Shown here piece by piece: positions 3,184-59,336 of a DNA stretch of 64,000 nt (the first letter of the stretch is position 1; each line of letters begins with the position of its first letter). Location: the NCBI RefSeq assembly GCF_009905375.1, contig NC_133653.1:91561671-91625670 (forward strand), read 5' to 3'. Source of the stretch: Apium graveolens. Its lineage: Eukaryota > Streptophyta > Magnoliopsida > Apiales > Apiaceae. The translations under genes were made by a program, and so were the position numbers. The notes beneath the pieces were generated by a model that was given only the letters and a program-made list of their open reading frames with translations, ran no database searches and was not told where the DNA came from.

Positions 3184-6100
3184 CTAAGCAAATAGATGGG
3201 GATACTTTTCTTTCATTTCGCTTTCTAATTCCCAAGTCGATTCCTCGACTAGTGGATTTCTCCACAACACTCTAACTAGAGGTACAACTTTATTTCTAAG
3301 CGTCCTTTCTTTTCGATCCAAAATTCACACTGGTTGTTCCACATAGGACAAATCTGGTTGGATTTCTACTGGTTCCAACTCGATCACATGGCTCGCGTCG
3401 GCATTATACTTTCTCAGGAGAGATACATGAAATACATTGTGCAGATGTTGCATTTGCGGCGGCAGTACCAATTCATACGCCACTTTCCCAACTTGTCGCA
3501 ATACTTCAAATGGTCCAATGTACCTTGGACTTAGCTTTCCTTTCTTTCCAAATTGAGTTAAACCTTTCCAAGGAGATATCTTCAGCAAGACCTTGTCTCC
3601 AGTTTCGAATTGCACATCTTTTCACTCTTTGATTCGCGTACTTTGCCTGTCGGTCTTGAACTGCAATTAATCTCTTTCGTATCATTTCAACTTTTTCCTT
3701 CGTTTGCTGCACTAGCTCGGAGCCAATTAACTTGCGCTCATCAACTTCGTCCCAATAAGTAGGGGATCTACACTTCCTTCCATACAACGCTTCATAAGGC
3801 GGCATGCCAATACTTGCGTGATAACTGTTGTTGTAGGAAAACTCAATTAAGGGCAAATGATCGTCCCAATTTCCTTTGAAATATATTACGCAGGTTCGCA
3901 ACATATCCTCAATTGTCTGAATTGTCCTTTCACTTTGTCCGTCTGTTTGCGGATGATATGCTGTACTCATTTTCAATTTCGTTCCCAAATGATCGTGGAA
4001 TTATCGCCAAAATCTCGAATTAAACCTTGGATCTCTATCAGACACGATAGATACAGGAACTCCGTGATGCATCACGATTTCATCTAGATACAATTTGACC
4101 AGCTTCTCTAATGAAAACCTTTTGTTTATCGGCAAGAAATGTGCTGACTTTGTCAATCGATCAATTACCACCCAAATCGCATCATGATTAGACTTGGTTT
4201 TAGGTAATCCTACCACGAAATCCATCGCGATATGTTCCCATTTCCATTCAGGTATGTCCAGTGGCTGAAGCAATCCACTTGGCCTTTGATGTTCCGCTTT
4301 AACTATTTGGCACGTGTAACATTTGCTTGTCCATTCCGCAATTTCCTTTTTCATGTTTGGCCACCAAAAATTTTCTTTCAAATCCTGGTACATCTTCATA
4401 CTCCCAGGGTGGATTGAAAATCTCTAGTTATGTGCTTCTTGCAAAATCTCGTGCTTTAGTTCCACAAGATCAGGTATCCAAATACGTGAGTTAACACGGT
4501 ATATCCCTTTTCCATCCTTTTGAGCTTTAATTTCTTCTCCAGTCAACTTATTCCTTTCGCGATTCATCACTTGCTCTTGATAGCATCTAATCTTTTCCAA
4601 AATTTCAGGTTGAAACTGTATTGCATAAATGGCTTCACCTCCACATTCTGGAGTCTGCACCACTATTTCCATCTTTTCAAAGTCCTTGATTAATTCTTCT
4701 GATGACGTTAACATATTCAACTTTTCCTTTTGACTTAAAGCATCAGCTACCACATTTGCCTTTCCAGGATGATAGTTTATCGCACAATCATAATCTTTGA
4801 TCAATTCCAACCACCTTCTTTGTCGCATATTTAGTTCTTTCTGAGTAAAGATATACTTTAAGCTCTTATGGTCCGTATAAATCTCGCACTTTTCCCCGTT
4901 CAAATAATGCCTCCAAATCTTAAGGGCAAATACAATTGCTGCCAATTCCAAATCGTGCGTCGGATACTTTTGCTCGTGCGGCTTGAGTTGCCTTGACGCG
5001 TATGCTATTACCTTCCCGTGTTGCATTAACACGCATCCAAGTCCTTTATAGGAAGCATCACTGAATATCACAAATTCACCTTTATCATCTGGTAATACCA
5101 ACACAGGGGCGGTTACCAACCTCTTCTTTAACTCTTGAAAACTTTCCTCACACTTTTCTGTCCAAACGAACTTCTCATTCTTTCTCGTCAATTTTTTCAA
5201 TGGAACGGAAATCTTTGAGAAATCTTGCACAAACCTTCTATAGTATCCGGCTAATCCCAGAAAACTTCTGACTTCCGTCGGAGTCTTGGGTCTTTCCCAA
5301 TTCATTACAGCTTCTATCTTGGCTGGATCCACTTTAATTCCTTCTTTATTAACTACATGACCAAGAAATTGCACTTCCTTTAGCCAAAATTCACACTTTG
5401 AAAACTTTGCATACAACTTCTCTTTTCGCAGAATTTCCAAGGAAATCCTCAAATGCTCCTTATGATCTTCCTCCGTTTTGGAATAAATAAGTATATCGCC
5501 AATAAACACAATCACGAACTTGTCTAAATACTGCTTGAACACTCTGTTCATAAGATCTATAAATGCAGCTGGCGCATTCGTCAAGCCAAATTCCATCACC
5601 AAAAATTCATAATGTCCGTATCTTGTTCGGAACGCTGTCTTGGGTATATCTTCCGCTTTGATCTTTAATTGATGATACCCCGATCTTAAATCAATCTTTG
5701 AGAAACACGAAGCTTCTTTCAATTGGTCAAACAAGTCCTCAATCCGTGGTAGAGGGTACTTATTCTTGATCGTCAACTTATTCAGTTCACGGTAATCGAT
5801 ACAAAATCGCATACTTCCATCCTTCTTCTTTACAAACAACACCGGTGCGCCCCACGGGGATACACTCGGTCGGATTACTCCTTTTTCCAACAACTCTTGC
5901 AACTAAGCTGCCAATTCCTTCATTTCAACCGGCGCCATGCGATAGGGAGCTTTCGACACTGGTTCCGTACCAGGAGCCAATTCAATCATAAACTCGATCT
6001 CTCTGTCTGGAGGTAGTCCAGGCAATTCATCAGGAAACACGTCCGGAAAATCTCTTACTACCGGAATATCGTCGATCCTTACAGATTCTTTCTCCACGTC

Positions 6101-7693
6101 CACGACATGAGCCAAATAAACCTCGCATCCTTGACGCATTAATCTTCTCGCCTCAATAACCGTTAGAAACTTCTTATCTTGCCTTTTTCCTTTAAATATC
6201 ACTTCCTCACCATCCTTGGTTTTTAACTTCACTTTCTTACTTTTACACTCTATTTGCGCCTCATGATTTGACAACCAATCCATTCCTAGAATAACCTCAA
6301 ATTCTCCTAACTTAAAAGGAATTAAGTCAGCAGAAAAGTGCCGACCTTCTATAGACACATCACCGTCGGGACAAATCTTATTAACAACAATTTTCTCTTG
6401 ATTTGCTACCTCTATAATCAACTTAGGCTCTAGAGGGTACGCAACACAATTTAACCTATCAAGAATGCTTTCAGAAATAAAAGATCTGGTTGCTCCAGAA
6501 TCCATCAAAACTTTTACTTCTACTGAGTTGATAACAAGCATACCTGCTACCACGTCCACATCTTGCACCGCATCTTTCATTGACATGTTAAAGGTCCTAG
6601 CTCTGGGTTGAGCTGATGGTGCTGGGAGAGACGGTGATCCAGCAATTCTGAGAACATTAGCCTTCTGCACAGGCTCCTTGCAATTTCTAGCCATATGGCC
6701 TACCTTGCCACACTTGAAATAAGCCAAATCAGGCTTCCTTACTTCATTTGAACATTTTGAAGAATAATGCCCCTTCTGGTTGCACTTAAAACATGTTATA
6801 TCCAGCTTATTATACCTCCCCGGGTGTCTCTTTCCACAGTTCCTGCATTCTTGCATCTGGGGTCTGCTTTCCTTTCCCGGTTGTCCAGCTTTCTGGAAAT
6901 GGTTCTTCTGAGCTCCATTCCCGGGTCTAAACCTCTGGAACTTTTTGTTCTGACCTCCACCATTCTTCCCAAACTTTCCTCTGACCTTTGAACTTCCTTG
7001 CTCTTGCTCAGAGCTTTCAAACTTCCTCTTTCTTCCTTCATTTTCTCTTCGAGCAGCTTCCCGCTCACCTTCCACTATCATTGCTTTCTGAACCAAAGCA
7101 GCATAGTTCTTGATCTCCAATATCGCTATTTGACTCCTAATCCACGGCTTAAGTCCCTGCTGGAACCTCTTAGCCTTCTTTACTTCAGTATTCACGTACT
7201 CTGGCACGAACCTTGCCAACTCCGAAAACTTCACCTCATATTCTGCTACCGACATTTCCTCCTGTCTAAGATCCAGAAATTTCATCTCCAACTGATCTTG
7301 CATATAACTTGGCAAATATTTTTCCAGAAACATCTCAGTGAACTTCTCCCAAGATAAGTCTTTGCCTTCCAACAACGCCTTAGAAGACTCCCACCAGAAA
7401 CTTGCTTCATCCCTCAAATAATAACTTGTGTACTGAGCTTTCTTATCATCCTTAACTTCGGCTAGCTCAAAGGCTTTTTCCATCTCTCTCAACCACGACT
7501 GTGCTTTAATTGGATCTGGCAAACTTAAGAACTCTGGAGGATGAACAGATTGAAAGTGCTTGAAATTTCCAACTTTTGGGGCCACAGGTTGTTGCAAAAG
7601 CTGAGCAAGTCTGCTCATCAAAGTGGTTTCTGGGTTTATTTCTGGGTCTTGGGTGGGAATTTCTTCTTCTTGGTGATCTGGTGAGTTGGCCAT
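3184..7693 (-). pseudogene. Gag-Pol polyprotein of copy A, disabled chromovirus
   Basis: Reads from ATG at 7693: gag, a CCHC zinc-knuckle region (CFKCNQKGHYSSKC; the next knuckle reads YFKCGKVGHMARNC and has lost its first Cys), retropepsin ([11 protein letters not shown]), reverse transcriptase, RNase H ([15 protein letters not shown]), integrase with zinc-binding and D,D,E core ([34 protein letters not shown]), then a chromodomain (WRNPLVEESTWELESEM) ending at TAG 3184. Lesions: TAG 5903-5905 between protease and RT (Gln in E1), TAG 4424-4426 before the integrase zinc finger, TAA 4001-4003 (Gln in E1), a frameshift near 3616-3640, and TGA 3325-3327 before the chromodomain. The RT catalytic FIDD motif reads FIGD (codon 5498-5500). 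The copy cannot make an active polymerase as it stands. All these defects recur in copy B. Confidence 0.93.
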
Positions 7694-8237: not shown

Positions 8238-8732
8238 CTAATCATCTAGGATCTCTCTCAACACAATCAACATCCAGCGAATGATCTTATGCAGCCTCCG
8301 GGCCTCAGCATCAGCATCGCTAGTGGATGGTCCCTCATCCAATCTCTTCCTGGCAACCTGCTCCACCATCTTCACCCGAACTCGCCACTCATCATCCATA
8401 ACAGAAGCACTCTGCCTAGACTCTCTGGCTAGCCTATCCACCAAAGCTCCCAACTCAGGAATGCGGGAGTACACAAAGTCTCGGTCCTGGGCTAACTTGC
8501 CACCAACACTGATAGGAACAGTCTTAGGCATCTCCGACTCTGTCTCAGGGGCAGGGGTCTCTGAATCAGGCCTCAAGGGTGAAATCTGCATAGGGATCTC
8601 ACTACTCTCAGAAGGGTCCTCCTCTGGGTCTGAACTAACATATACAGGCTCCTCTAGAGAGGGTGGAATAGGGTCCACAGGGGTACCAGTCAAGCTAATC
8701 TCTGAGTCTGAATCACTACCACTACTAGGATC
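8238..8732 (-). CDS. Pre-gag acidic/helical ORF, copy A (predicted exon 2)
   Basis: An open frame of 164 codons lies between the primer binding site and gag, on the same strand. It starts DPSSGSDSDSEISL, continues as a Ser/Asp/Glu/Pro-rich acidic stretch of about 80 residues, then a helix-prone charged C-terminal half (ALVDRLARES, MVEQVARKRLDEG, IIRWMLIVLREILDD). An in-frame ATG exists at 8756, but the eight codons it adds are pyrimidine-rich sequence that looks like a 3' splice site (TTTTCTCTCAG ending at 8733). I therefore place the true 5' boundary at 8732, joined in phase 0 to the H3-like exon in LTR2. I recognise no domain. It stays open in both tandem copies although pol is broken. E1 carries a comparable ORF at the same place, starting with a similar SSGSD run. 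Function unknown; a chromatin-linked role is only inference. Confidence 0.6.
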   Translation of the reverse strand, partial: DPSSGSDSDSEISLTGTPVDPIPPSLEEPVYVSSDPEEDPSESSEIPMQISPLRPDSETPAPETESEMPKTVPISVGGKLAQDRDFVYSRIPELGALVDRLARESRQSASVMDDEWRVRVKMVEQVARKRLDEGPSTSDADAEARRLHKIIRWMLIVLREILDD

Positions 8733-9244
8733 CTGAGAGAAAACATAAAACAACAACCAAGAAACAATGTTAGGGTCAAATAAAGCTTCCAGCTAACTCA
8801 CACCCTAACTCTAGTTTTTGCTTTACCAATCAAACACTTTCCTTAGACTATACCTAATAGTCTAACTCAACTCTACATGAGTCGAACTCTCACGCGATAT
8901 AGATATATTCCCAAAATACCCCTTTTTAAAACCTAACTTGTCTCAGGGACTAGATCCTGTAGCTCTGATACCAACTTGTGACACCCTCAATCTCGGAGTT
9001 AGGAAATGAGGACTCACACACCTCTATTATAATAATAAAATATGCATAAACCCCGATTAACTACTAACAGGATCAACAGGATAAAGTATGAGACAAGATT
9101 ACAACTACCAATCATAAAATATAACTTACAAACCCAAAATATTACTAAATAATCAATATCGATTCCGGCTGGGAACCGACAGATAACCCATTGTATCTTT
9201 ATACACCTCTTTCTAGGCGCGAGCTCACTCATAACCTGTACTAC
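8733..9244 (-). other. Predicted intron spanning the primer binding site, copy A
   Basis: The donor CAG|GTAGTA is at 9245/9244 inside the LTR. The acceptor TCTCTCAG|GAT is at 8733/8732, preceded by a branch-point-like CTAAC and a T-rich tract (CATTGTTTCTTGG, TTGTTTTATGTTTTCTCTC). The length is 512 nt. Both sides are in phase 0 with their reading frames. Splicing would remove the primer binding site, giving an mRNA that cannot be reverse-transcribed in the normal way. Prediction from sequence only; another phase-0 donor lies at CAG|GTTATG nine bases downstream. Confidence 0.55.
8962..8973 (-). other. Primer binding site (initiator tRNA-Met), copy A
   Basis: The minus strand reads TGGTATCAGAGC, complementary to the 3' end of plant initiator tRNA-Met, five bases inside the 5' LTR end. 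Confidence 0.92.
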
Positions 9245-9325
9245 CTGCTCTGGCAACTGGAAGCCCTCAACACGGTAGGGACCAACAGGTACGCTCTTAC
9301 GAGCAGTGCGCCTAAGCCTGGCCAT
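9245..9325 (-). CDS. Histone H3 tail-like LTR ORF, family A (predicted exon 1)
   Basis: ATG at 9325 opens MARLRRTARKSVPVG. Compared with the H3 N-terminus (Met counted as 0), residues A1, R2, T6, A7, R8, K9 and S10 are identical, including the K9/S10 pair, and R4 replaces K4. The exon is 27 codons to the predicted donor after Q27; without splicing the frame runs on to a stop at 9014 (103 aa). A 10-codon upstream ORF (9312-9344) starts just ahead and overlaps it. It sits about 350 bp from the inner LTR edge, downstream of a conserved hairpin (9367-9381). The same ORF is at 19577-19657. H3 resemblance is seen directly; translation and function are inferred. Confidence 0.6.
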
Positions 9326-9366
9326 CTTCTTGCTTAACTGCCATGGTTAGATTAAGACAAAACAAA

Positions 9367-9381
9367 TGAGTATAAAACTCA
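9367..9381 (-). promoter_or_regulatory. Conserved LTR hairpin upstream of the H3-like ORF (LTR2)
   Basis: The minus strand reads TGAGTTTTATACTCA, a perfect TGAG/CTCA stem. Equivalent hairpins stand before the homologous ORF in E1, E2 and E3. A TATATAG lies close by at about 9393-9399. It may mark the transcription start or a leader RNA structure. Confidence 0.5.
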
Positions 9382-12300
9382 GCAAGTAACTATATAGCAG
9401 TTCTACAATATCAATTCTCAATATACTTTGAACAAACTAGGGCATTCTATCTTAGCTAATCTAGGTGGCAGATTTCCATATATTTATTTTTGTTTTATTT
9501 GGGATAAGGAAAGGGTATCCGAAGAATAGTTGGGCTTTCAAGAAACAAAGCTCGAAACAGGACGAAAGCCGACATTCATCACAATTCATTTTAGGATCAA
9601 AATAGATCTTTCGGTAGAGGAAAGCAACAGTATTTCAAGATATAGAATCATTCATATGATCAACAATTTCAGGAATCAGGGTTCTGAGCATTAAGCTCCA
9701 CATTAACATAATCAACTCTTTTCAAAGCAGTATAAACCATTTTCATTTCCAAAAATCAATTTACTGAATAAAAGTTTCAGTTCCCTTTTTAAATAATCAT
9801 TTAGGACCCTTGATTGGATCACTTATCTTTCCATTTCATTATATACGGGTGATCAGCCCGTATCGACCTCCATTCCGGTCTTTAAGGTACCATTCGGCAT
9901 AATTTCAGCCTTAAATTGGACTAGTCCCACTAGCCTCTTACCATGACTAGACTAGACTAGTCCCACTAGCCTCTTACGTCTCAATCCAATCCATCAGGAA
10001 TCCATTTGGAAAACCTTGAGTTGGAAAATAATAGGTTTTCTAAAATTCATTTTATCATTACCAAACCTTTGAAATCATTCGGACTCTTTCAAGTCGAAAC
10101 TCATTTTTAATTCAGATTTTAAAGAAACAAAGTTCAGGGAGTGAATCAAAGATACGCAAGGAATAATTCTCAAGAATTCTGTATCAAGGATAATAAGGTA
10201 CTAAATTTGAAGGATCAGTAATAACTTAGGGATCATTAGGGCGATCAAGAGAAACAGGGTATCATTAACAGAGTTATCCAAGATAATTAAAGGTTCAATA
10301 TGATTCATGGCATTATAGGAAACTGGAACAGAAAGGCAGATTATCAAAGGGTGAAATTAATAGGATTATCAATAACAGGTTATCAAGAACAAGGGTACTT
10401 CAAATCAATATCAGGATTTCATAGAGCAAGGGTTTATACTTTAACAGTTCAATACTCTACATGGTATGAACAACATTTCCTTTATAATCATTTACACAAG
10501 TAATCAGAGTTACTTTCCTGAAATTGCTTTCATGAGGGTTGAACTACTGCCACCTAGTATACTTTTCCCTTTCCTAGCCCGAATGCCCTCACGCTCCGAA
10601 TCTACAATAAAAACCAAAAATCTTAATTAGATTCCCAACTCTCGTTCCCGGAACGATCTCTCTATACGATAACTCGATTATATCTTTGACTCGAGCATAC
10701 GAATATAGCTTATACAAATAAGCACACAGCACATAGCACAATCATTTCTCGAAGTTTTTATATCCTTATATACCTAGCAATCAAAGCATACTCGCTTGAC
10801 CTAGGCTATTTCTCAAATCACACTAACACGACTCTTTTACGAGTACTAGACCCATTTACAACCAAACATTTACGTCCATAACTATCACTTATATCTTTTA
10901 AAATCAACCAAATACGCATTTTAATTCATATAAACACATGGCTTATTCTAAACCATTAAAGAATCATTCTCCTTTCTTTTAATTATAAAAATTCGAACCA
11001 TAATCATACATATACAATCAAATTTCTCAAAAATCACACCATACAACTTTAGTTCTAGCATGATTCCACATTTAAACTAGCACCATTTTCTTGATCAACA
11101 ACCATTCGAACCAAAACATACATACATGCTCACATGCAATTCAATTTCAACTTATCACGATATCAAACACTTTATCTTTATCAAGTAAGCCAACTAAGTT
11201 CCTTAACACAATTGATTTTCACCTTAATTATAACATGCATCCATTCATTCATCAAATTAATCCATTTTAACTCCATTTCATTCGGTAATAACTCAAATTC
11301 ACATCTCAAGGACAAATCAATGACATGCACATCTTGATCCTTTTTAAAACTAACATGCAATCACTTTTAGGCTATTCACACTTAGTGTTTACCAAGATTA
11401 TCTCACAAAAGTGAATTTCCTTTCTTATTAACTCAAAAATTCGAACCTAAACTTAGCATGCAACAATAATTCATTCCTTATTAATCTAATCACCATCCAT
11501 CATTACTTTAATCAAGTCTACTCACAACAAACCACTTTAAAGATTCAACCCATTCGGGTTTATCAAGAAAACACACATACAAAGATCAATCTTGACATGC
11601 AAAGTCCTATATCACATTTTCAACTTGTTTTTAACTTAGTCATTTAACTCATTTTCATCAAGATTTCCGAAGCACAAAGCCAAACATCACCTAATGACTC
11701 AACCTTAATCAAATTATTCAATGCATGCATTCACTTAATCACAAATCAATCTCTTTTAAACCCATTTTCCATTCGGCAAACATTCAAAATTCACAATCCA
11801 AGAACCAAACTTTGACATGCATCACTAACTCCTCTTTTAAATCAACATGCAACTCTATTTCCTACTAATTAAGCTTAGTTCATACCAAGATCCAGTCACA
11901 AAATTCAATTTCCCTTTTTATTAGCATAAAGCCGCAGTAAAAACTCACATGCAAATCATAAATTTTGATTTTCTAAGCAACAATCACATGCACACATTCA
12001 TTTCATAATCAAGGAAATCATTTTACCAATCACATACTCAATTTTCAACAAAAGAAACAAAACCCTTTTTCAAGCTTTCAAGAAACCATAACATGCAACA
12101 TTAAAATCCAACAATCACATCATGGAAAACCCACCGGCTCTCCTTTGGATCATGGCTGGTGGTGGTCGAACTTGAGAGAGTCCATGACGGATCTCTTCTC
12201 GAGTTTATGACCTCCAAAACCTCTTAAAATCACTCTTATAGTTATGCTTCAAGAAATTATTTTTCTTAAACACAACCATAGTGATCACTTCAACAAAACC

Positions 12301-12540
12301 TTTATAATCACTTACATGCAAGTAGGAATTGAAGTATATACCAAGAATAACAACTAATGGAAGCAATATCTCGGTGTTTGAGTGTGTTTTAATGGTTGCA
12401 TGCGAGTGAGAGAGGTGAGAGATGAGAGAGCTGAGAGGGAGTGAGAGAGAGAGAGAGTGTGTTCGGGAGAAAGAAAGAAAAAGAGAGAAGAGAGAATGAG
12501 TGCTCGGGAAAGAAAGAAGAAAATGGGGAGGAAGGGGTTG

Positions 12541-12547
12541 ATTTATA
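12541..12547 (-). promoter_or_regulatory. TATA-like site before CT-rich leader (LTR2)
   Basis: TATAAAT on the minus strand is followed by the pyrimidine-rich tract at about 12418-12508, as in LTR1. Confidence 0.4.
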
Positions 12548-13475
12548 CTCCACCAAAGCAAGGGCAAGATGGTAATTTAATAATTCCTTTTTGACTCACA
12601 CATACTTTCTCTTTTTACTTAAATACAACAAAATTCAAATATAAAATATATCTCTCTCGGGAAGTCAAGAATTATTGAAAATGATAATTTTAACACGTAG
12701 GTCTCGTAATTAGCTTTTTATCCATTACTCATAATAAGAATTTGAGCGAACGGTTGATTTTATATGAATTTCGCAAACTTGCTTTAATAAATATATTTTC
12801 CACATAAAATCAATTTAAAAATGCAAAGATCAATAATCAAATTCACTTATCATTTTTATAAAGTCTCTAAGGTCTTTACAAGGATAACAGAACAAATCCC
12901 ATATTTTTATCTTACTCGGATGGTTTTATAAAATGCACGAAGGTTAAATAAACCCTTATTTAAATCAAATAATTCCTTTAAATCCATAAAAATGTCACAG
13001 AGCACACAGTCATGCACACAGGCTAGCAATCACACATATACGATCATATAATGACTCAGGTCTGATCACAAATTTATTCCTCTTTATATCTGTATTCCCT
13101 TTTTATTCTTTATCATCTTTTACGCGTACCGGGTCACGTTCAGCCTGACGGCCCGACACACAGCGTTTCGATTATGCTTCTCATTATATTTGCCAATCAA
13201 CACGTCTCTTAAGACGAAATACTTTATTCATTCACTTCACATATAATTCACATTTTATATCAAATAATTCCATATTAGGACGGGTTCCGTTCTACCTGAC
13301 GGCCCGACACCACAGCTCGACTTCTAAGCTGACTCTTTAAATTGGAACGTTTTTATCCACGCTCCTTAACTCTAGTATACAGATAAGACAAATAATCACC
13401 GCTTAATCACATAATCTCATCACATAACACATACTTTACTTTCTTAATTACGACGCAAAATTCTCGGTCGTTACA

Positions 13476-18569: not shown

Positions 18570-19064
18570 CTAATCATCTAGGATCTCTCTCAACACAATC
18601 AACATCCAGCGAATGATCTTATGCAGCCTCCGGGCCTCAGCATCAGCATCGCCAGTGGATGGTCCCTCATCCAATCTCTTCCTGGCAACCTGCTCCACCA
18701 TCTTCACCCGAACTCGCCACTCATCATCCATAACAGAAGCACTCTGCCTAGACTCTCTGGCTAGCCTATCCACCAAAGCTCCCAACTCAGGAATGCGGGA
18801 GTACACAAAGTCTCGGTCCTGGGCTAACTTGCCACCAACACTGATAGGAACAGTCTTAGGCATCTCCGACTCTGTCTCAGGGGCAGGGGTCTCTGAATCA
18901 GGCCTCAAGGGTGAAATCTGCATAGGGATCTCACTACTCTCAGAAGGGTCCTCCTCTAGGTCTGAACTAACATATACAGGCTCCTCTAGAGAGGGTGGAA
19001 TAGGGTCCACAGGGGTACCAGTCAAGCTAATCTCTGAGTCTGAATCACTACCACTACTAGGATC
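18570..19064 (-). CDS. Pre-gag acidic/helical ORF, copy B (predicted exon 2)
   Basis: Same as the copy-A ORF, with two changes seen by eye (SSDLEEDPS for SSDPEEDPS, and STGDADA for STSDADA). The frame is open throughout. The phase-0 acceptor AG is at 19065-19066. Function unknown; retained in a copy whose gag and pol are both broken. Confidence 0.6.
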   Translation of the reverse strand, partial: DPSSGSDSDSEISLTGTPVDPIPPSLEEPVYVSSDLEEDPSESSEIPMQISPLRPDSETPAPETESEMPKTVPISVGGKLAQDRDFVYSRIPELGALVDRLARESRQSASVMDDEWRVRVKMVEQVARKRLDEGPSTGDADAEARRLHKIIRWMLIVLREILDD

Positions 19065-19576: not shown

Positions 19577-19657
19577 CTGCTCTGGCAACTGGAAGCCCTC
19601 AACACGGTAGGGACCAACAGGTACGCTCTTACGAGCAGTGCGCCTAAGCCTGGCCAT
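19577..19657 (-). CDS. Histone H3 tail-like LTR ORF in LTR3 (predicted exon 1)
   Basis: Identical in its first 27 codons to the LTR2 copy (MARLRRTARKS start at 19657). As the 5' LTR of copy B, this copy would be transcribed with the copy-B pre-gag ORF. Unspliced, it runs to 19346. Confidence 0.6.
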
Positions 19658-22873: not shown

Positions 22874-23248
22874 CTCCACCAAAGCAAGGGCAAGATGGTA
22901 ATTTAATAATTCCTTTTTGACTCAAACATACTTTCTCTTTTTACTTAAATGCAATAAAATTCAAATATAAAATATATCTCTCTCGGGAAGTCGAGAATTA
23001 TTGAAAATGACAATTTTAACACGTAGGTCTCGAAATTAGCTTTTTATCCATTACTCATAATAAGAATTTGAGCGAACGGTTGTCACACCCCCAACTTAAA
23101 TAGCAAAATAATTATAGCTATTACATCATTTTAATGAGTATTACACAAACAAAATCCAAGATCTTACAGTTTAGGGTTTGGAACTGCCCAACACTACCAA
23201 CTATTACATCTGATTACAAATACCGAGTCCTCACACAACTATTATTAC

Positions 23249-23320
23249 TTATTCTACCTGAGCTCGAACATAAGCATCAGCATCACAGGTCTTACGGGCA
23301 GTCTGCTTGAATCTAACCAT
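23249..23320 (-). CDS. Histone H3 tail-like LTR ORF, E1 left LTR
   Basis: 23 codons from ATG 23320 in strong context (GCCATGG), opening MVRFKQTARKTCDADAY. Against H3 (Met as 0), R2, K4, Q5, T6, A7, R8 and K9 match, and T10 replaces S10. It ends in TAA, but a good donor, CAG|GTAGAA at 23258/23257, falls in phase 0 after codon 21. It is the first ATG after the conserved hairpin. The copy in the 5' LTR (32547-32618) is the one expected to be transcribed into full-length RNA. Confidence 0.55.
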   Translation of the reverse strand: MVRFKQTARKTCDADAYVRAQVE

Positions 23321-23356
23321 GGCTGCTAGCTGTAATATCAGGGTAAAGCAAGAAGT

Positions 23357-23369
23357 GAGCCAAAAGCTC
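23357..23369 (-). promoter_or_regulatory. Conserved LTR hairpin, E1 left LTR
   Basis: Minus strand GAGCTTTTGGCTC, a GAGC/GCTC-type stem before the H3-like ORF, flanked by the shared context TTGAGC...CTCACTTCTTGC. Confidence 0.5.
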
Positions 23370-23740
23370 AACAAGTGCTAACAATACAACGCAAAGCATA
23401 AATCGAGATATACCTTTAGGAATGACAATGGAATGACATAATCAATGATAATCGAGAGATAAAACTTATGTGAGTTGGCATCATTTTGCTTGCATCAAAA
23501 CAAATTTTAAAACCATTCTTAATCAAAATCATTTTATGACGCTACGGATTACAGCCGGTGATCAGCCGCGAAGTAATCCCGAACCTCGCTGGGTTCTAAA
23601 ACATTATTGGGAATCCCTAGGCAACTTTTAAGCCTAATATAAGTGTGGAAAGGACTCGCGTCTCAGTCCAGATCCACCATTCAAAGAAAACATTTATCCC
23701 CCTTTGGGACTGAAAAATCCACATTTTAATCATTTTAAAA

Positions 23741-24008
23741 ACTGATGCCGATTTATGACAAAATCTCTTTCGACTGAAATCATTTTTTTTTTTTTATCAG
23801 GGGATTATAGATCAACTTGAAACACTGGAAATATGACACTAAATCTCAGGGCCATGATCCACTAGACTTTACTATACTGATGCCGATTTATGACAAAATC
23901 TCTTTTGACTGAAATCATTTTTTTTTTATCAGGGGATTATAGATCAACTTGAAACACTGGAAATATGACACTAAATCTCAGGGCCATGATCCACTAGACT
24001 TTACTATA
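23741..24008. repeat. 135-bp tandem duplication in E1 left LTR
   Basis: Two adjacent copies start ACTGATGCCGATTTATGAC at 23741 and 23876 and end near TTACTATA. They differ by one substitution (TTTCGACTG against TTTTGACTG) and in poly-T length. The right LTR has the same duplication, so it predates the insertion of E1. Confidence 0.9.
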
Positions 24009-26935
24009 TTAGGGTAATCGAGAGATTTCCATAAACAAGAATTTTGACAAGGAAATTAAGCAAGGCTATTGGATAATATGAAAGAGTAATGCCAAACTAG
24101 GCTTAAAGCAATGGTTGTAGACAAGGTATAGGTATTAGAACATCAAGAAGATAAGCATCACTGGTTCCAATAGGATAGAGGTGCTAAAATATAAAGGAAG
24201 TGATCATCAGCTCAAGATATAACAGGGCATCAAGCTTTAGGGTAAGGATAGGGTTATCAAACAATCATGAACGAATTTAAGAAAAGATTGGCTTTTAGGT
24301 ATCAAGATAAAGTTTCTATCGAGGTTATTTCAAGAGTTGAATCAAAGCATCAGGGTGCAACATCAAGATCTCTCAGGGATCAATAGCATGATAATCAAAA
24401 GGATCAATAAGGTATTATAACACATCTCTATTTTATCATGGCATTAAACTATCATGAAAGACTTTTGAACTACTTGCAATACGTACTCGAGGGTTCATGG
24501 CATCTCTATGTAACTCAAAGATAAACAAAAGATACTCTTGATTTAAATATATCAAAATGACTCAGGATAATTGCATCGATATATATATGAACTGTTTACA
24601 GTAAATGCGAAGGTCAAGTTGAATCACTTGCCTTGAGATAGACTGGTCTGGTCTGACTGGTAGGAGCAACAACGGAGCTTCACTCGACTTTTATGGCAAG
24701 TTTTCCCTCGTCTCGAGATCCTACATAAATAATAATAATCCTCATTATAATATATTCTTTCCATCTTAACCTATTTACAACCCGAAATTAAACATGGATG
24801 GCACTTAGGCCTATACACACTTAATTCATATCCACCATTTATATTTTCAAATGTACACACGTAGCCACATAATCACATATCGTATATTAATACCAAATAA
24901 CATCATATACACCATAATGCCACACTAGGCTTGGATGATCTCGACTCACCACTTAAGTTACTTGGTCGCTAACTAAACGAAGTCTTCGAATTTGGGCTTC
25001 CTAACTCAATGTGCCTTTCCTAAATTATCCAAAACCTATTGACCCTCACTTGTGCCTTTTGCTCTACTGACCTTATACTATCTTACAACTATGGTGGTCG
25101 ACCTAATACTCACTTCTAAGTGTCCTAAAACTATGTGATAAGTGAAAGTGCTCACTGGTGCAAATTTCAGAATGGTAACTAAGGTTTCTTGAGTGCATTA
25201 GACACTCTTAAACTACAAGTTTTTCTTCAAAATTTTTACACAAGACTCTCCTGACCTAAGGGCATCTCACAAGCTTGATGTGGCTCAAAGGCCTGGCTTG
25301 GGCCTCAAAGTGCACATCAATGACATGGTCAAAACTCACTCTAAACCTCAGGGTACTAAACTGATTTTTCTGCAGAAACTATAACTCTCATTTTCCAAGG
25401 TTTTGACTTGACAAACCCAATTATCAACAACTAAATACTTAAACCAAGACTTATACTTGGTATTCTACTGAACTAACTCCCTTTTTCTCAAAATACCCTT
25501 GGTGAGATCATCCTTACCTATGGTGCAACTATGGCAAAATAAAAGAGACTACTCTTTACAAATCACAAACCTTTATGCTCTTGAAGCAACAAGATATATA
25601 TATATATTTATTTTTTTTTCTTTTTATAAAAGATAACCACGAATTATTACCATGCAATAAGAAGTATAAATCAATATTAATACATTATTCCTACTGAAAT
25701 TAAGGCTCACTAACAACCATGAATCTAAATGATCAAAACTTCCAAAAATATCAAAAGTGATTTGCATGCATGCATGCTTTCGGATCTTTCAAGCCAAATC
25801 AACATGATTTCCAAATAAATTTTTATCATAATTCAACATGCAAGCCTAACATGGATTACAACTAAATGATCAACTAGCATGCAAAAGGATTTTATCAAGA
25901 TTTTACTACAAACTTCATGTTATCATCACAAAATACACAAAAATGTTAACAAGGCAACAAAACACCATCCATTCGGCTCCTATCAAGTCATGGCCGAATG
26001 GATTAGGGTAAAAACAGCATTCGCATAAGTGTAACACTCTTATGTCTAGCCATTCTTGACCCTATGATACTATAACTCATGGTGAAAGCCTTAGATTCAC
26101 AAGAATCAAGGAGGTTCACTTTGAGTTTAACCAAAACATCACCATGCAAGGTCAAAACATAGGTTTTTCACTCTAAACTTTTGAAATATATAAGAATAAC
26201 ATATAGGGAGTAAAATTACTTGAATATAAGATGATTGTTTGGGTGAAAGAATGAAGAAATGAAGGGGATGGAGGGCCTCGGCTATGGGATGGCCGAGAGG
26301 GAGGGTTGAGCCGAGAGGGAGGGAGGAGAAAAGGGAAGGGTGGAGTGAAAATGGAGTGATCATCACTTTAGTTTTGTTTTTATGTCTTTGACTAGGCTAA
26401 ATGTGAGTGGATTTAGGAAATGACAAGAGTAACCCTCTAGCTAAAGTTAGGCAAATTTGCATGCAAGGTCAAGGAGGTAATTTGGCTAGCAAAATGTGAG
26501 TTAGTGGGGTGGAGAATGTCTTCTTTGCCCTTTGGTTAAATAGAAGAGAGTTTGCATGCAAGGTTATTCATGTAATTTAATAATTATGACAACTAAAATT
26601 TATAATGATTTATTTTTATAAAATAAAATACAAGTTCAAAAATTATAAAATTTCTACCATAAATTAACTTGTATTTTTAGAGACTTTATAAAATCATTTT
26701 CACAATTTGTGTACAAAATGTCTTTTAAAAGAAAATTTTTCCAAAGCTTAGAATATTCCTTATAAATCAAAAATAAAGAAATTAAATAAATTCTTGCTTT
26801 GAAAAATCATATACTACCCAAAGCAAATTTATAATGCAGAAATTTTCACTCACACAAACGTACAAGCATTGAATATATTTTTATTTAACTTAATATTATT
26901 CACAAATAATATTACATAAAATGCCGGTCGTAACA

Positions 26936-26964
26936 TCCTCTCCCCCTTAAGGGATTCTGTCCCC
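26936..26964 (-). other. Polypurine tract, E1
   Basis: Minus strand GGGGACAGAATCC then CTTAAGGGGGAGAGGA directly before LTR start TGTTACGACC. Confidence 0.88.
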
Positions 26965-26969
26965 AGAAT

Positions 26970-29900
26970 CTAAGAGAACAGATGAGGATACCGGGAACGC
27001 ATATCAGACTCTAACTCCCAAGTCGACTCTTCGACCTTAGGGTTCCTCCAAAGTACTTTCACTAACTTTACTGATTTATTTCTAAGACTCTTTACTTGCC
27101 AGTCGAGTACTTTAACCGGTTGCTCCACAAATGACAGGTCTGCCTGAATTTCTACAGGTTCATATTCTATCACATGGCTAGCGTCAGGATTGTACTTCTT
27201 AAGCAACGACACATGGAACACATTATGCACATGCTGATACTGAGGTGGTAAGGCCAACTCGTAGGCCACCTTTCCTACTTGACTCAAAATCTCAAAAGGA
27301 CCTACGTATCTAGGTGCTAACTTTCCTTTCTTGCCAAATCTTATCAACCCTTTCCTAGGTGACACTTTTAGCAACACAGCTTCGCCAATTTGGAATTGAA
27401 CATCCTTACGCGCTGGATCCGCATACTTCCTCTGTCTATCTTGAGCAGCAAGCAACCTTTTCTGAATTAACTTGACTGAGTCATGCAACTGTTGTACCAA
27501 TTCTGAGCCGAGAATTCTTCCTTCTCCTACTTCATCCCAACTTGTTGGTGATCTACATTTTCGCCCGTACAAAGCTTCATATGGTGGCATGCCGATACTG
27601 GAATGATAGCTGTTGTTATATGAAAATTCAATTAATGGCAGGTGGTCGTCCCAACTTCCAGCAAAATCGATTGCACAACTGCGCAACATGTCTTCAATTG
27701 TTTGAATTGTTCTTTCACTCTGGCCATCAGTCTACGGGTGATACGCCGTGCTCATATTCAACTTCGTGCCAAGACATTCCTGGAATTGCTTCCAGAATCT
27801 TGAGTTAAATCGGGGATCTCTGTCTGAAACTATTGATACAGGTACTCCATGCCTTAATACGATTTCGTGCACATACAGATGAACCAACTTGTCCAGTGAC
27901 GACTTCTCATTTATTGGAAGGAAATGCGCCGACTTCGTAAGACGATCAATTATAACCCATATTGCGTCATGTCCGGACTTTGTTCGTGGTAGTCCTACTA
28001 TAAAGTCCATAGCGATATTTTCCCATTTCCATTCTGGAATCTTCAGGGGCTGAATTAATCCGCTTGGTCGTTGATGTTCTGCCTTTACTTTCTGACAGGT
28101 ATAGCACTTCGCAACCCATTCTGCCACGTCTCTTTTCATATTTGGCCACCAAAAGTTCTTCTTTAAGTCTTGATACATCTTGGTGCTTCCCGGGTGGATT
28201 GAAAATTTCGAATGGTGGGCTTCATGGAGGATCTCATTCTTTAATTCAGATACATGGGGAATCCATATTCTGGATGAAAACCTTAGTATTCCTTGCTCAT
28301 CCCTTTTAGTATTAATCTCTTCTCCAGATAACTGATTTTTCTCTTTTTCCATTACTTCCTCTTGATACTTCTTTATCTTTTCCAGTAGTGTTGGCTGAAA
28401 GGTCATTGCATGACAAACTTCTTTGACTTTCCCATAAGCACAAAGTTCCAATTCAAATTTTCCGATTTCTTCGGATAACTCTTTTGATGTTATCATTATA
28501 TTCAATCTTTCCTTCCGACTCAGCGCATCGGCCACTACGTTCGCCTTTCCAGGATGGTAATTTATCGAACAGTCATAGTCCTTAATCAATTCCAGCCATC
28601 TCCTCTGCCTCATATTGAGCTCTTTCTGAGTAAAAATGTACTTTAAACTCTTGTGATCCGTGTAGATTTCACACTTTTCTCCATAGAGATAGTGTCTCCA
28701 AATCTTGAGTGCGAACACTATGGCGGCTAGTTCCAAGTCATGCGTCGGATACTTTAACTCGTGCGGCTTCAACTGTCTTGACGCATATGCTATTACCTTA
28801 CTGTGTTGCATCAACACACAACCCAAACCCTTATGTGAAGCGTCGCTGAATATTACAAAATTCCCTTGATCATCGGGAAGTACCAACACCGGAGCTGTTA
28901 CCAACTTCTGTTTTAACTCTTGAAAGCTATTTTCACATTCTGCACTCCATTCAAACTTTTGATTCTTTCTGGTTAACTTGGTCAATGGTGTGGCGATCTT
29001 CGAGAAATCCTTGACGAATCTTCTATAGTATCCGGCCAATCCTAGAAAACTTCGCACTTCCGTAGGAGTCCTTGGCCTCTCCCAACTCATAACTGCCTCA
29101 ATCTTCGCCGGATCCACTTTAATTCCATCATTTCCAATAACATGCCCCAAAAATTGAACTTCCTTTAACCAAAACTCACATTTGGTAAACTTGGCATACA
29201 ACTTCTCTTGTCGGAGTATCTCCAATGCTATCCAGAGGTGCTGCATATGTTCTTCTTCCGATTTAGAATAAATAAGGATGTCATCAATAAATACCACGAC
29301 AAATTTATCCAAATACTTCTTAAATACTCGATTCATCAGATCCATGAATGCGGCCGGAGCGTTGGTCAATCCAAACGGCATTACTAGGAATTCATAATGC
29401 CCATATCTGGTCCTAAATGCGGTCTTGGGAATATCTTCTTCCTTGATCTTTAATTGATGGTATCCCGATCTCAAGTCAATCTTCGAAAAACATTTTGCTC
29501 CCTTTAACTGATCAAAAAGGTCATCTATCCTTGGTAGCGGGTAGCGGTTCTTGATCGTTACTTTATTCAACTCCCGGTAATCTATGCATAGACGCATACT
29601 CCCATCTTTCTTCTTCACAAAGAGAACAGGTGCTCCCCATGGCGACGTACTTGGTCGTATCACTCCCTTATCCAATAATTCTTGTAGCTGGCTCGCCAAC
29701 TCTTTCATTTCTGCTGGTGCCATCCTATACGGAGCCTTTGAAACTGGTTCCGTGCCTGGAGCAAGGTTGATCTCGAACTCAATTTGTCGATCTGGTGGTA
29801 AGCCTGGTAGTTCGTCGGGAAACACATCGGGGAACTCATTAACTACAGGAATATCTTCCATGCTGGGGCTGCCTCTCTCTGAATCCACTACATATGCTAG

Positions 29901-31583
29901 GAACGACTCACAACCTTTTCTAAGTAACTTCTTAGCCTGAATAATTGTAAGAAATAGTCGCTCTTGCCTCTGTCCCTTAAATACTACCTTCTCTCCACTC
30001 TTCGTCTTTAAATACACTCTCTTGGTCTTACAATTTATCTGAGCGCTATTCTCTCCTAACCAATCCATTCCTAAAATTATATCAAACTCTCCCAGCTTGA
30101 AGAGTATCAAGTCGGCCGAGAACTTATATCCCGAAATATCAATCTCACATTTTGGACAAAATTGATTCACAGGAATCTTCTCTTGGTTCGCAATTACCAC
30201 ATTTACTACCTCACTCATAACCGTTTTATCACATTGGATCTTATCAACAGAAGATTCTGATATGAAAGATCTTGTGGCTCCCGAATCAATCAATACTTTG
30301 GCTTTGACATTATTGAGTAAAAGTGTACCTGCTATCACCTCAGAATTCTGAACAGCATCTTTCATCTTTAGATCAAATGTCCTTGCTGTTGCTTGCGGGG
30401 TTGGTGCGGGTGGTGGAGGTAATGCCAATACCTCAGCTGGCACGCTTGCACTGGTACTTGCCACGTTCATCAGAGCTCTGACTGGTCCTGTTGCCTTACA
30501 CTCCCTAGCCATGTGTCCAGTCTTCCCACATTTGTAGCACGTAACTCCTGGCTTCGGCATCTTGCACTCATTTGCCAAATGTCCCTTCTGATTGCACCTA
30601 TAACAGGTCATACTCAGCTTATTGCATACTCCGGGGTGCCTTCTTCCACAGTGCTTGCATTCTGGCCTCTGGAACCTGTTTTCTCCAACTTGCCCTTGGC
30701 TTGCCTGATTGTTCCCTTTTGATTCTTGCCTTTTGCCCAAATTTCCTTTCCTTTGAAAATTTCCGCCCTTCTGGAAACCAATCCTCTTTACATTCCGATC
30801 TTGCGAACTTCCAGCTTCAGACTTTTCTCCATAAAATGGAACCTTCCTCTTCTTGTTATCCCTCTCTTTCCTTGACTGCATCCCATTATTCTCAATCAGA
30901 GCAGCTTTCTGTACTACTCCCGCATAAGTTTCAAGCTCAAACATAGCCACCCTATCTCTGATCCAAGGCTCCAATCCTTGCTGAAATTTCTTTGCTTTTT
31001 CTTCCTCAGTGCTAGTATACTTTGTCACAAACCTTGACAACTCAGTGAACTTCTTCTCATATTCCAGTACAGTCATGTTCCCTTGTTTTAACTCAAGAAA
31101 TTTTAGCTCCATCTGATTCTGCATGTACTTAGGGTAATACTTGTCCAGAAATAACTTCTTAAATCTCTCCCAAGAAATCTGCTGAGTGACTTCCATAGCT
31201 TTTACTGATTCCCACCAATAAATGACTTCTCCCTTCAAGAAGTAAGTGGCATACAGCGTCTTCTGATCGTCTCCTAACTGTACCAACTCAAAAGCCCTTT
31301 CCATCTCCTTGATCCATGTGTTTGCTATCACTGGATCAGTGGTATCATGAAATACAGGTGGATTCACACTCTGAAAAGCCTTGAAAGTGACAATTTGTCT
31401 TGGTGGTACTGGTGGTTCAGGTGGTTGATATGGCTCACGGTTATCTTGGTTTTCAATTCGTTGTTGAAGAGTTAGTTGTTGTTGAGCTATAGCATTGGTT
31501 TGCTGTTGCAAGGTTTCCAGTAGTCGAAGAATATTTGGGTCTGTGGTGAAGGTGGTTGTTGGATTCTTCTTTTTGGGAGGCAT
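26970..31583 (-). pseudogene. E1 Gag-Pol polyprotein, intact except one TAG
   Basis: ATG at 31583 ([10 protein letters not shown]), one frame to a stop at 26970, about 1537 codons. Rough domains: gag 1-300; zinc knuckles at about 327-340 ([14 protein letters not shown]) and 349-362 ([14 protein letters not shown]), preceded by [12 protein letters not shown]; protease [11 protein letters not shown] at about 431-441; RT with FIDD at about 765-768; RNase H from about 912 ([10 protein letters not shown]); integrase zinc finger from about 1130, core [12 protein letters not shown] and [15 protein letters not shown] region; chromodomain (WRNPKVEESTWELESDM) to the end. The only break seen is TAG at 27732-27734 in the integrase HPQTDGQ motif, where Gln is expected (CAG to TAG). 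Downstream sequence is intact in frame. This is either a recent inactivating mutation, a sequencing difference or a read-through stop. Confidence 0.95.
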
Positions 31584-31884
31584 GATCCTGAAATAAGAGT
31601 TGTGTTATAACAAATATGAATGATAAAATGATTCGAGGGTATCGCATGGCATTCTTGTTTACATATGGGGTCAAGTTTCCAGATATGATGACAAAACATA
31701 AAATAACAGTTGAGAGCAGATGGAACAATAGCAAATAATTATTGAAATTTTAAAGGTCACAGTACATAGGATTGGGACATAGTCTGATTCTAGAAATAAC
31801 AGGCTTATTTAAAGGAAAGACGGAAACAACTGGGGATTCCATAGAGTCTGATAGTACAACAACATGAAAGGTAAATGGAAAGAA

Positions 31885-32236
31885 CTAAGGCTCCACTCCA
31901 TCTGAACGGGGCTTGGTAGTCTTTTCCTCTCGAAGCGTCTTCACAATGCTCTGGAGCTCATCTGCCACCATCTGAATGACATACTGGCTGGTACGGTCCC
32001 GGTGTGCTGGCATCTCCTCAAGCTTAGTGTTGACGTACCGAACCAAGGTCTCAAGTCTCGCAATCATCTGCTCCTTGGGCTTCCCTTCGTAGTTTCGGCT
32101 GTCCGGATACACGTTCTTCAGTCGGTCTATCAGTCGGTCGTACTTGCCCTGAAGCATGTCGAACTCGCGCCTCAACTCAGCATACACGGAGAAAGCAATA
32201 GTGTCGTCCGACCCAGAGGATGACGAGGAATGCGCC
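31885..32236 (-). CDS. E1 pre-gag ORF (predicted exon 2, helical protein)
   Basis: The frame opens through AHSSSSSGSDD, then YAELRREFDMLQGKYDRL and a long charged, helix-prone region to a stop at 31885; about 117 codons from the candidate acceptor. It occupies the same place as the family-A pre-gag ORF and shares the SSGSD start, a DRL segment and a basic/acidic helical C-terminus. The only nearby AG acceptor (GTCAACAAAG| at 32237/32236) would enter this frame one base out of phase with the E1 H3-like exon, so in-frame fusion is not supported in E1 as sequenced. No ATG starts the ORF; only a GTG (32185-32187) lies near its beginning. That fits an exon better than a free-standing gene. Confidence 0.5.
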
Positions 32237-32361
32237 CTTTGTTGACAACCAATAAGAGGAGTATTAATAATAATTTACTTTACCTTCTCTCTCGCGTAAT
32301 ATCTATAACCTACACACAAATCCTATAACCTATTTGGGCTGTCCAGGGACTCTAAACCGTT

Positions 32362-32373
32362 GCTCTGATACCA
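32362..32373 (-). other. Primer binding site (initiator tRNA-Met), E1
   Basis: TGGTATCAGAGC on the minus strand, five bases from the right LTR at 32379. Confidence 0.92.
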
Positions 32374-32546
32374 AAACCTGTCACACCCCCAACTTAAATA
32401 GCAAAATAATTATAGCTATTACATCATTTTAATGAGTATTACACAACCAAAATCCAAGATCTTACAGTTTAGGGTTTGGAACTGCCCAACACTACCAACT
32501 ATTACATCTGATTACAAATACCGAGTCCTCACACAACTATTATTAC

Positions 32547-32618
32547 TTATTCTACCTGAGCTCGAACATAAGCATCAGCATCACAGGTCTTACGGGCAGT
32601 CTGCTTGAATCTAACCAT
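32547..32618 (-). CDS. Histone H3 tail-like LTR ORF, E1 5' LTR
   Basis: Identical to 23249-23320: MVRFKQTARKT start, donor CAG|GTAGAA at 32556/32555. It lies upstream of the E1 primer binding site and pre-gag ORF, so it is the copy that would be in the genomic RNA. KQTARK matches H3 residues 4-9 exactly. Confidence 0.55.
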   Translation of the reverse strand: MVRFKQTARKTCDADAYVRAQVE

Positions 32619-32654
32619 GGCTGCTAGCTGTAATATCAGGGTAAAGCAAGAAGT

Positions 32655-32667
32655 GAGCCAAAAGCTC
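32655..32667 (-). promoter_or_regulatory. Conserved LTR hairpin, E1 5' LTR
   Basis: GAGCTTTTGGCTC on the minus strand, 37 bases upstream of the H3-like ATG. Confidence 0.5.
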
Positions 32668-33038
32668 AACAAGTGCTAACAATACAACGCAAAGCATAAA
32701 TCGAGATATACCTTTAGGAATGACAATGGAATGACATAATCAATGATAATCGAGAGATAAAACTTATGTGAGTTGGCATCATTTTGCTTGCATCAAAACA
32801 AATTTTAAAACCATTCTTAATCAAAATCATTTTATGACGCTACGGATTACAGCCGGTGATCAGCCGCGAAGTAATCCCGAACCTCGCTGGGTTCTAAAAC
32901 ATTATTGGGAATCCCTAGGCAACTTTTAAGCCTAATATAAGTGTGGAAAGGACTCGCGTCTCAGTCCAGATCCACCATTCAAAGAAAACATTTATCCCCC
33001 TTTGGGACTGAAAAATCCACATTTTAATCATTTTAAAA

Positions 33039-33304
33039 ACTGATGCCGATTTATGACAAAATCTCTTTCGACTGAAATCATTTTTTTTTTTTTATCAGGG
33101 GATTATAGATCAACTTGAAACACTGGAAATATGACACTAAATCTCAGGGCCATGATCCACTAGACTTTACTATACTGATGCCGATTTATGACAAAATCTC
33201 TTTTGACTGAAATCATTTTTTTTTATCAGGGGATTATAGATCAACTTGAAACACTGGAAATATGACACTAAATCTCAGGGCCATGATCCACTAGACTTTA
33301 CTAT
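33039..33304. repeat. 135-bp tandem duplication in E1 right LTR
   Basis: Copies begin at 33039 and 33174 with ACTGATGCCGATTTATGAC; same arrangement as in the left LTR. Confidence 0.9.
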
Positions 33305-41448: not shown

Positions 41449-41813
41449 TGTGGCGCCCCAAAATCCGGGGTCAGGAATCTCGGAGGCCACGCCATCTAAA
41501 CCACTATAAACCATATATCTCATACCATAATATATAATACTCACACTTTACGACCCCACACTTATCACACACACACACACACACTTACAGGTTATTGTCT
41601 TGAAAACGAACCATTCATAACTAGAGTAAATGAAACCACAAAGTGATAATTATTACAACCCAAAAGTAATTAAGTCTTACCGGGGAGTAACCCTTAAGTA
41701 AGGCTAGTCCGTCGGCCAAATATATGTTTCTTGTTTATTACCTTACATACGTCATACTTATAAATAAGCCAAACTAAAAACAACTGAAAACCAATCCAGC
41801 TTATTCGGACTAC

Positions 41814-41894
41814 CTGCGGTACAGCACCAAACAACCTACGGAACAACTGGCCATTTCCTACCTGTTTCCTGGCTGTGGTTCTCATGGTAGGCAT
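41814..41894 (-). CDS. Histone H3 tail-like LTR ORF, E2
   Basis: ATG 41894 opens MPTMRTTARKQVGNG. T6, A7, R8 and K9 fall at the H3 positions (Met as 0). A phase-0 donor, CAG|GTAGTC, follows codon 27 at 41814/41813, the same exon length as family A; another, CAG|GTAGGA, follows codon 11. Without splicing the frame runs to 41694 (66 aa). It is the first ATG after the conserved hairpin. It cannot be expressed as part of an element because only a solo LTR remains. Confidence 0.45.
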
Positions 41895-47627: not shown

Positions 47628-47780
47628 ATGAACAGGACCAAGCTCCCAATTCGCGAGCGGATAGGAAACGTTCCGCAGTTTCCTATAGGCGTTGATGTCG
47701 CTGTAGCTGAGGTAGGAACTACCAATAGGCTAGGCTTTCAACTTTTGATGTATCAGATTATGTATATTTATGAATTGTAA
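47628..47780 (+). CDS. Histone H3 tail-like LTR ORF, E3 (diverged)
   Basis: ATG 47628 opens MNRTKLPIRERIGN, 50 codons to a stop at 47780. Against H3, R2, T3, K4 and R8 are kept while TAxK is lost, complementing the residues kept by families A, E1 and E2. A phase-0 donor, GAG|GTAGGAACT, follows codon 28 at 47711/47712. It is the first ATG after the TATA-like site and hairpin. A second copy is at 57427-57579 in the right LTR. On its own the H3 match would not be convincing; position and donor make it homologous. Confidence 0.4.
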   Translation: MNRTKLPIRERIGNVPQFPIGVDVAVAEVGTTNRLGFQLLMYQIMYIYEL

Positions 47781-59324: not shown

Positions 59325-59336
59325 GCTCTGATACCA
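59325..59336 (-). other. Primer binding site (initiator tRNA-Met), copia
   Basis: TGGTATCAGAGC on the minus strand, two bases from the LTR. Confidence 0.9.

Follow-up and report, generated by a model that had tools for sequence, protein, structure and literature searches.

Can a plant retrotransposon lend the tail of a histone to one of its own proteins? Methylation of lysine 9 of histone H3 (H3K9) is a main chromatin mark in the silencing of plant retrotransposons, and a 64,000-nucleotide stretch of the celery (Apium graveolens) genome (contig NC_133653.1 of assembly GCF_009905375.1, forward-strand positions 91,561,671 to 91,625,670; hereafter, the window) contains Ty3/gypsy elements, denoted family A, in which the long terminal repeat (LTR) encodes a peptide that starts like the H3 tail. 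A first-pass annotation had attributed this peptide to an open reading frame (ORF) of the family A LTR. That interpretation holds in part: we conclude from the sequence comparisons that the H3-tail mimic, with residues 6 to 9 conserved, is real and apparently kept at the protein level, but it is neither a free peptide nor confined to family A. The LTR exon is very probably the first coding exon of a predicted spliced accessory protein, joined to an exon upstream of gag. Our best explanation of the whole, to which we assign a probability of about 0.55, is that the exon gives this protein an H3-like N-terminus that would engage the H3K9 machinery, blunting or diverting silencing.

The minus strand encodes, from position 9325, the peptide MARLRRTARKSVPVG (starting MARLRRTARKS), and an identical copy is encoded from 19657, as annotated in the first pass; translation bears out the gap-free identities noted there, A1, R2, T6, A7, R8, K9 and S10 (Met numbered 0), with the H3 sequence. 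The T6-A7-R8-K9 stretch is the one read by chromodomains and H3K9 methyltransferases. It occurs in register in five (A, B, D, E and F) of the six celery families (A to F) with a same-placed LTR exon, four of which (A to D) are present in the window. Identities to H3 residues 1-12 number 7 in family A, 7 in B, 5 in C, 5 in D and 11 in E; in the shuffle test, which covered these five families, the numbers of shuffled exon peptides reaching the same identities were 0, 9, 29, 339 and 0, respectively, per 200,000.

Two pattern searches gave a similar picture. The pattern M.{5}TARK has 6 matches in 264 kb (the window and a 200-kb genome sample) versus a mean of 0.075 in simulated sequence. Genome-wide, a pattern with lysine at position 4 (K4) has 4678 + 4553 = 9,231 matches and its reversed control 0 + 0, and a pattern with arginine there (R4) has 2265 + 2254 = 4,519 matches and its reversed control 3 + 0, that is, more than thirteen thousand matches in one genome for both patterns; the two are mutually exclusive, neither counts family D, true H3 genes are possibly among the K4 matches, 100 places were listed per pattern, and part of the matches was checked as LTR exons. 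Chance resemblance could be argued from a plain database search with single exons, which gave no match, but the in-register recurrence in five families, the 11-residue run in family E, and the shuffle, simulation and reversed-pattern tests all oppose it; chance thus appears not to be a good explanation of the H3 likeness, and we give it almost no weight.

The route by which the tail would reach a protein can be read from celery gene models, which are predictions; the named relatives in the protein searches are all from celery. The family A frame is open for 103 codons, but the spliced database proteins exit after codon 27 (...GFxLPEQ) at CAG/GTAGTA (here and below, the slash marks the junction) and, 512 bases further on, continue in phase at TTTTCTCTCAG/GAT in the ORF at 8238-8732, which lies in sense between the 5' LTR and gag, like the ORFs at 31885-32241 in family B and at L046 1343-2005 in family D. 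The junction, EQ/DPSSGSDSDSEISL, is present in models P0013, P0014, P0015 and P0021. P0015 (NCBI LOC141682795 isoform X3, 191 amino acids, 9 member sequences) starts at the ATG of the family A exon, and P0017 (isoform X2) has a different first exon spliced to the same exon 2 acceptor. In P0013, P0014, P0021, P0024 and others, the exon is entered at LSKK, corresponding to a 3' splice site that precedes the ATG by 12 bases; this entry upstream of the ATG, together with the donor after codon 27, makes the exon internal to the LTR. Because the intron spans the LTR end and the primer-binding site, splicing removes both, so that the spliced RNA could serve only as a messenger whereas the unspliced RNA would be the template. 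The product is not Gag, since exon 2 stops ahead of the gag ATG. Thus, of the LTR ORF taken in the first pass as the source of a free peptide, the segment 9245-9325 stands as an exon, and the rest of the 103-codon frame lies in the intron of the gene models.

The accessory protein is predicted to consist of the H3-like start, a disordered acidic arm and three helices. In the AlphaFold2 model (14 aligned database proteins), residues 1-100 have low confidence and contain neither helix nor strand, and the helices comprise residues 103-131, 137-159 and 165-190 (mean pLDDT 64.2, pTM 0.43). With its 191 amino acids, the family A product is below the limit of at least 250 codons in the eORF definition of PMC6317226 (this and the other PMC articles are cited for the portions available to us). 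Several other products were considered and rejected. A true histone H3 or a histone-fold end does not fit the three-helix model, the lack of any Pfam match for P0015 at E<=5, or the Foldseek search of the PDB with the accessory model, in which none of the 103 matches at E<=10 reached E<=0.001. An H3-tailed Gag is precluded by the stop of exon 2 before the gag ATG. A free-standing LTR protein of 103 amino acids was dismissed because the spliced models retain no more than the first 27 codons of the frame; against this rejection, P0001-P0004, which are unspliced ORF predictions of 89-98 amino acids from short contigs, have the read-through frame predicted.

The same arrangement recurs outside family A, which came from the first-pass annotation; families B, C and D were met without motif selection, and E and F via the motif patterns. 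Models P0032, P0035, P0041, P0043 and P0049 join the family B exon to exon 2 as AQ/Q(R/S)AHSS, and P0040 uses a different junction. Family D, in the 200-kb genome sample (picked by round coordinates), has MPAMRTTARKRVGNGQLFRRLFGVVPQ/GTAGTC and an acidic exon 2 with its acceptor in phase, and model P0033 enters the D-type exon 2 at the acceptor that was predicted from DNA. Family E is represented by two places of the pattern list, MVRTKQTARKSIG (L049) and MVRTKQTARKSTG (L050). A primer-binding site lies downstream of each; L050 is identical to H3 over residues 2-12 and has a B-like exon 2. In family F, MARTRTTARKRVGDAREYRRLFVRQPPQ/GTAGAC (L051), again upstream of a primer-binding site, reads MARTRTTARK, and a second copy (L052) has the same start and an exon length that differs by one base. 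The 200-kb sample contains 15 primer-binding-site matches; the four with chromovirus-like LTR ends that were read comprise two C-type, one D-type and one other. No exon was seen at C4 minus 99633 of this sample, with only 367 upstream bases, nor upstream of the primer-binding site at 59326, where the LTR end is copia-like by eye, and the stricter motif M.R...[TSA][AV][RK][KR] has no match in the sample.

Comparison of the exons between families suggests constraint on the protein. Among families A, B, D and E, 4-8 of residues 1-10 are identical, versus 0-3 of 10-11 beyond residue 10. The T-A-R-K codons, ACTGCTCGTAAG in A, ACTGCCCGTAAG in B, ACAGCCAGGAAA in D, ACCGCCCGTAAG in E and ACTGCCCGCAAG in F (L051), show only synonymous differences, including AGG in D versus CGT for R8. 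The 100 listed K4 places comprise 20 distinct 30-mers and 9 T6-A7 codon pairs; at positions left free by the pattern, Q5 is found in 97 of the 100 and residue 3 is F in 95. For exon 2 of families B and E, pN is 0.315 and pS 0.734 over 114 codons, that is, dN/dS of about 0.14 with dS near saturation. Within family A, 40 scored places, with six duplicate loci dropped, provided 22 copies for comparison, two of them in the window. The first-pass annotation had named loss of TARK at residues 6-9 among related elements, or frequent stops and frameshifts in young copies, as grounds for giving up the mimic; the exon frame is intact in 22/22 copies, TARK is kept in 20/22, and the same residues are in register in B, D, E and F. 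The donor GT is present in 21/22 copies; 11 copies extend as far as the exon 2 acceptor, and 9 of these have its AG. Being best matches and hence young, these copies say little on selection: the exon differs at 33/1,782 positions and the rest of the frame at 102/5,082, with no difference between the two. Such equal divergence is expected of copies decaying after insertion and is no evidence for selection.

On the minus strand of the window, family A forms an array in the order LTR-internal-LTR-internal-LTR, with LTRs of about 4.5 kb (Table 1). The third LTR begins at 19309 and ends at 36956, and is interrupted by the family B element, so that positions 1-36956 can be described as a tandem array of two family A elements with common LTRs and with family B inside the third. 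Families A and B have Pfam matches to gag, protease, reverse transcriptase, RNase H and integrase in the Ty3/gypsy order between the LTRs; family C is assigned to Ty3/gypsy by DNA likeness to the pol region of A, and D, E and F are classed by the LTR exon, primer-binding site and exon 2. A Pfam search of the family A LTR ORF gave nothing useful. The label Tekay is putative and comes from the first-pass annotation, the long LTRs and the ORF upstream of gag. Family B seems to be very young: with its 420-base LTR end as query, the 40 matches that were scored are all 100% (rounded) identical. A copia-type gag (Retrotran_gag_2, zinc knuckle) at 40222-41544 adjoins the D-type LTR piece.

Table 1. 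LTR exons and associated features of the window
Feature	Position	Strand	Basis
Family A LTR holding the exon	8977..13475	-	
Family A LTR exon of 27 codons (MARLRRTARKSVPVGPYRVEGFQLPEQ), with its donor GT at 9243-9244	9245..9325	-	ORF and gene-model exon end
Family A exon, second copy, identical in sequence	19577..19657	-	
12 untranslated bases and AG of the 3' splice site, 5' of the family A exon; gene models enter here at LSKK	9326..9339	-	
Family A intron, 512 bases, holding the LTR end and primer-binding site	8733..9244	-	Junction in P0013, P0014, P0015, P0021
Family A primer-binding site, TGGTATCAGAG	8963..8973	-	
Accessory-protein exon 2, family A unit 1 (DPSSGSDSDSEISL...LREILDD, stop)	8238..8732	-	
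Accessory-protein exon 2, family A unit 2	18570..19064	-	
Gag-protease ORF, family A unit 1, separate from exon 2	5903..7693	-	
Family B element (LTRs 23081-26935 and 32379-36229) inside the third family A LTR, with duplication ACGGT	23081..36229	-	
Family B LTR exon, MVRFKQTARKTCDADAYVRAQ; donor CAG/GTAGAA	23258..23320	-	
Family B LTR exon, other LTR	32556..32618	-	
Family B exon 2; this copy without AG at the acceptor	31885..32241	-	Gene models
Family C LTR exon, MNRTKLPIRERIGNVPQFPIGVDVAVAE; donor GAG/GTAGGA; weak H3 likeness	47628..47711	+	
Family C LTR exon, other LTR	57427..57510	+	
D-type LTR exon, MPTMRTTARKQVGNGQLFRRLFGAVPQ, in an LTR piece; donor CAG/GTAGTC	41814..41894	-	

The celery gene models also include combinations with other genes. 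In P0007, P0011, P0024, P0025 and P0041, the LTR exon is joined to host-like genes, such as an ARF-type GTPase in P0024 and ribosomal protein L29/L35 in P0025; these are either host proteins with an H3-like start or annotation noise. In P0024 and P0027, exons of different element families are combined within one model: the first exon is of family C type (MNR(I/T)KLPI...), and the family A exon is joined to it either immediately or later in the model.

What might the H3-like start do? In these celery Ty3/gypsy elements, an internal coding exon near the 3' end of the LTR would supply it to the accessory protein. Removal of Met would leave A or V at position 1 and so display A/V-R-x-K/R-x-T-A-R-K in H3 register; this tail may meet SUVH-type methyltransferases or methyl-H3K9 readers, and such engagement would blunt or divert the silencing of the element. 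K9 is indicated by the lysine kept there in five families, three of which have R at position 4, and we lean towards the H3K9 pathway, either its writers or the readers of the silencing machinery, as the target. A fuller scenario is more tentative, and we would not bet on all of it: an ancestral chromovirus may have captured or evolved an H3 gene start as an LTR exon, and its descendants would make an H3-tail decoy, perhaps oligomeric and methylated like H3K9, that draws SUVH-type writers and methyl-H3K9 readers from the chromatin of the element or to the element's use.

A number of observations weigh against such a role. The exon is internal or host-joined in most spliced models, where it could not be a free N-terminus: of the four models with the family A junction, P0015 alone starts at the ATG, and the family B exon is internal in 6/6 models holding it. 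Some copies and models depart from the arrangement or the motif: the family B copy of the window has no acceptor AG, both family E copies are damaged at the donor end, models P0040 and P0041 of family B read TTRK and TSRK and P0049 has I for R2, and TARK is lost in family C, which shares only R2, T3, K4, R8 and G12 with H3. The plant reader ADCP1 contacts R2, K4 and K9me2 rather than ARKS (PMC6318295), and this set is fully kept in families B and E, whereas A, D and F have R at K4. A search of solved structures with the A or B exon sequence returned no match at E<=10 and did not find H3, so the resemblance rests on register and recurrence. Because the genome-wide patterns fix the motif in advance, their counts show abundance rather than selection. 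Finally, R8 is encoded by CGT in 100/100 listed K4 places, so that constraint at the DNA level is possible there.

The last observation is shared with the view that a captured H3 gene start left the exon behind as a relic, or that splicing is the only reason for its retention, the peptide being inert. The H3 likeness of family E through G12 at the protein level and the use of exon 1 as a splice-in exon in many gene models would fit this view, as would the constant CGT at R8 in the B-type list (100 listed places). Yet TARK is kept where the exons otherwise share little, its codons change synonymously (AGG versus CGT at R8 of family D included), and exon 2 has a dN/dS of about 0.14 between B and E; we regard this view as improbable. 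Hardly better are the odds of the tail serving as a handle for nuclear import or for histone chaperones by borrowing the import route of H3. The tails of families A, B, D, E and F are basic, and nuclear localisation has been predicted for other Tekay 5' additional ORF proteins (PMC11728184), but a simple import signal should require neither T6 and A7 nor a fixed distance from the ATG, and both are kept in five families.

A somewhat stronger competitor, though still an unlikely one, is targeting, whereby chromatin readers or the element's own chromodomain integrase would use the H3-like tail as a handle to deliver the accessory protein, together with its cargo, to chromatin or an integration site. 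TARK matches the strand read by chromodomains (in part, PMC6318295), and the C-terminus of the family B integrase gives a weak match to Chromo (E 0.0021). At 18.4 bits, however, this match is below the Pfam cut-off of 25.1, the family A piece tested has none, and the only chromovirus clades for which a significant share of elements is reported to have the aromatic cage are three others (PMC6317226). Our order of preference is decoy or diversion of H3K9 silencing, then targeting, then import.

If the H3K9 interpretation is correct, families that encode their own H3-tail protein would represent an arms race at the silencing mark itself, and the additional ORFs upstream of gag would gain a concrete hypothesis that can be tested with peptides. 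LTRs can hold coding exons that are missed by searches for long ORFs, and gene models splice such LTR exons into host genes.

Histone-tail mimics are found both in viruses and in host proteins, including influenza NS1 and G9a. Like these two, the celery exon encodes a short H3-tail-like stretch around a modifiable lysine; unlike them, it spaces the motif from the start codon exactly as in H3, belongs to a plant retrotransposon, and is identical to H3 over 11 residues in family E. Vandal elements are DNA transposons with sequence-specific protection, and their proteins are not known to include a histone-tail mimic. The Vandal anti-silencing proteins resemble the celery product in being extra proteins of plant mobile elements, in their case acting against silencing (PMC11728184). 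Additional ORFs before gag, of unknown function, are known in Tekay elements (PMC11728184, PMC6317226, PMC7264820), and the Tekay/Del 5' additional ORF (5'aORF, eORF-5'F; sunflower Tekay 13-2) likewise encodes an extra protein upstream of gag that is largely disordered and has three helices (PMC11728184). The sunflower Tekay 13-2 ORF, however, is a single one of 402 amino acids (PMC11728184), whereas the predicted celery protein starts with an H3-like exon inside the LTR; a word search of the main text of PMC11728184 found neither "splic-" nor "histone".

As in BARE1 (PMC3735527; junctions CAG/GTAT and CAG/GA), part of the celery RNA would be spliced for translation, and spliced RNAs of plant LTR retrotransposons are also known from Ogre and Bagy2 (as cited in PMC6317226 and PMC7264820). 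The introns of these three elements are located elsewhere (the gag end, gag-pro to reverse transcriptase, and the env-like gene), whereas the celery intron starts inside the LTR and runs across the primer-binding site. Mimicry by plant transposable elements has been reviewed with regard to RNA and DNA decoys (PMC12085086). Among the matches listed in the open literature on histone mimicry with mobile elements and on extra or spliced ORFs of LTR elements, with few subscription papers covered, we found no earlier description of an H3-like exon in an LTR. Compared with the known 5' additional ORFs and the known mimics, what appears to be new in celery is the presence, in several families, of a putative H3-like coding exon inside the LTR itself.
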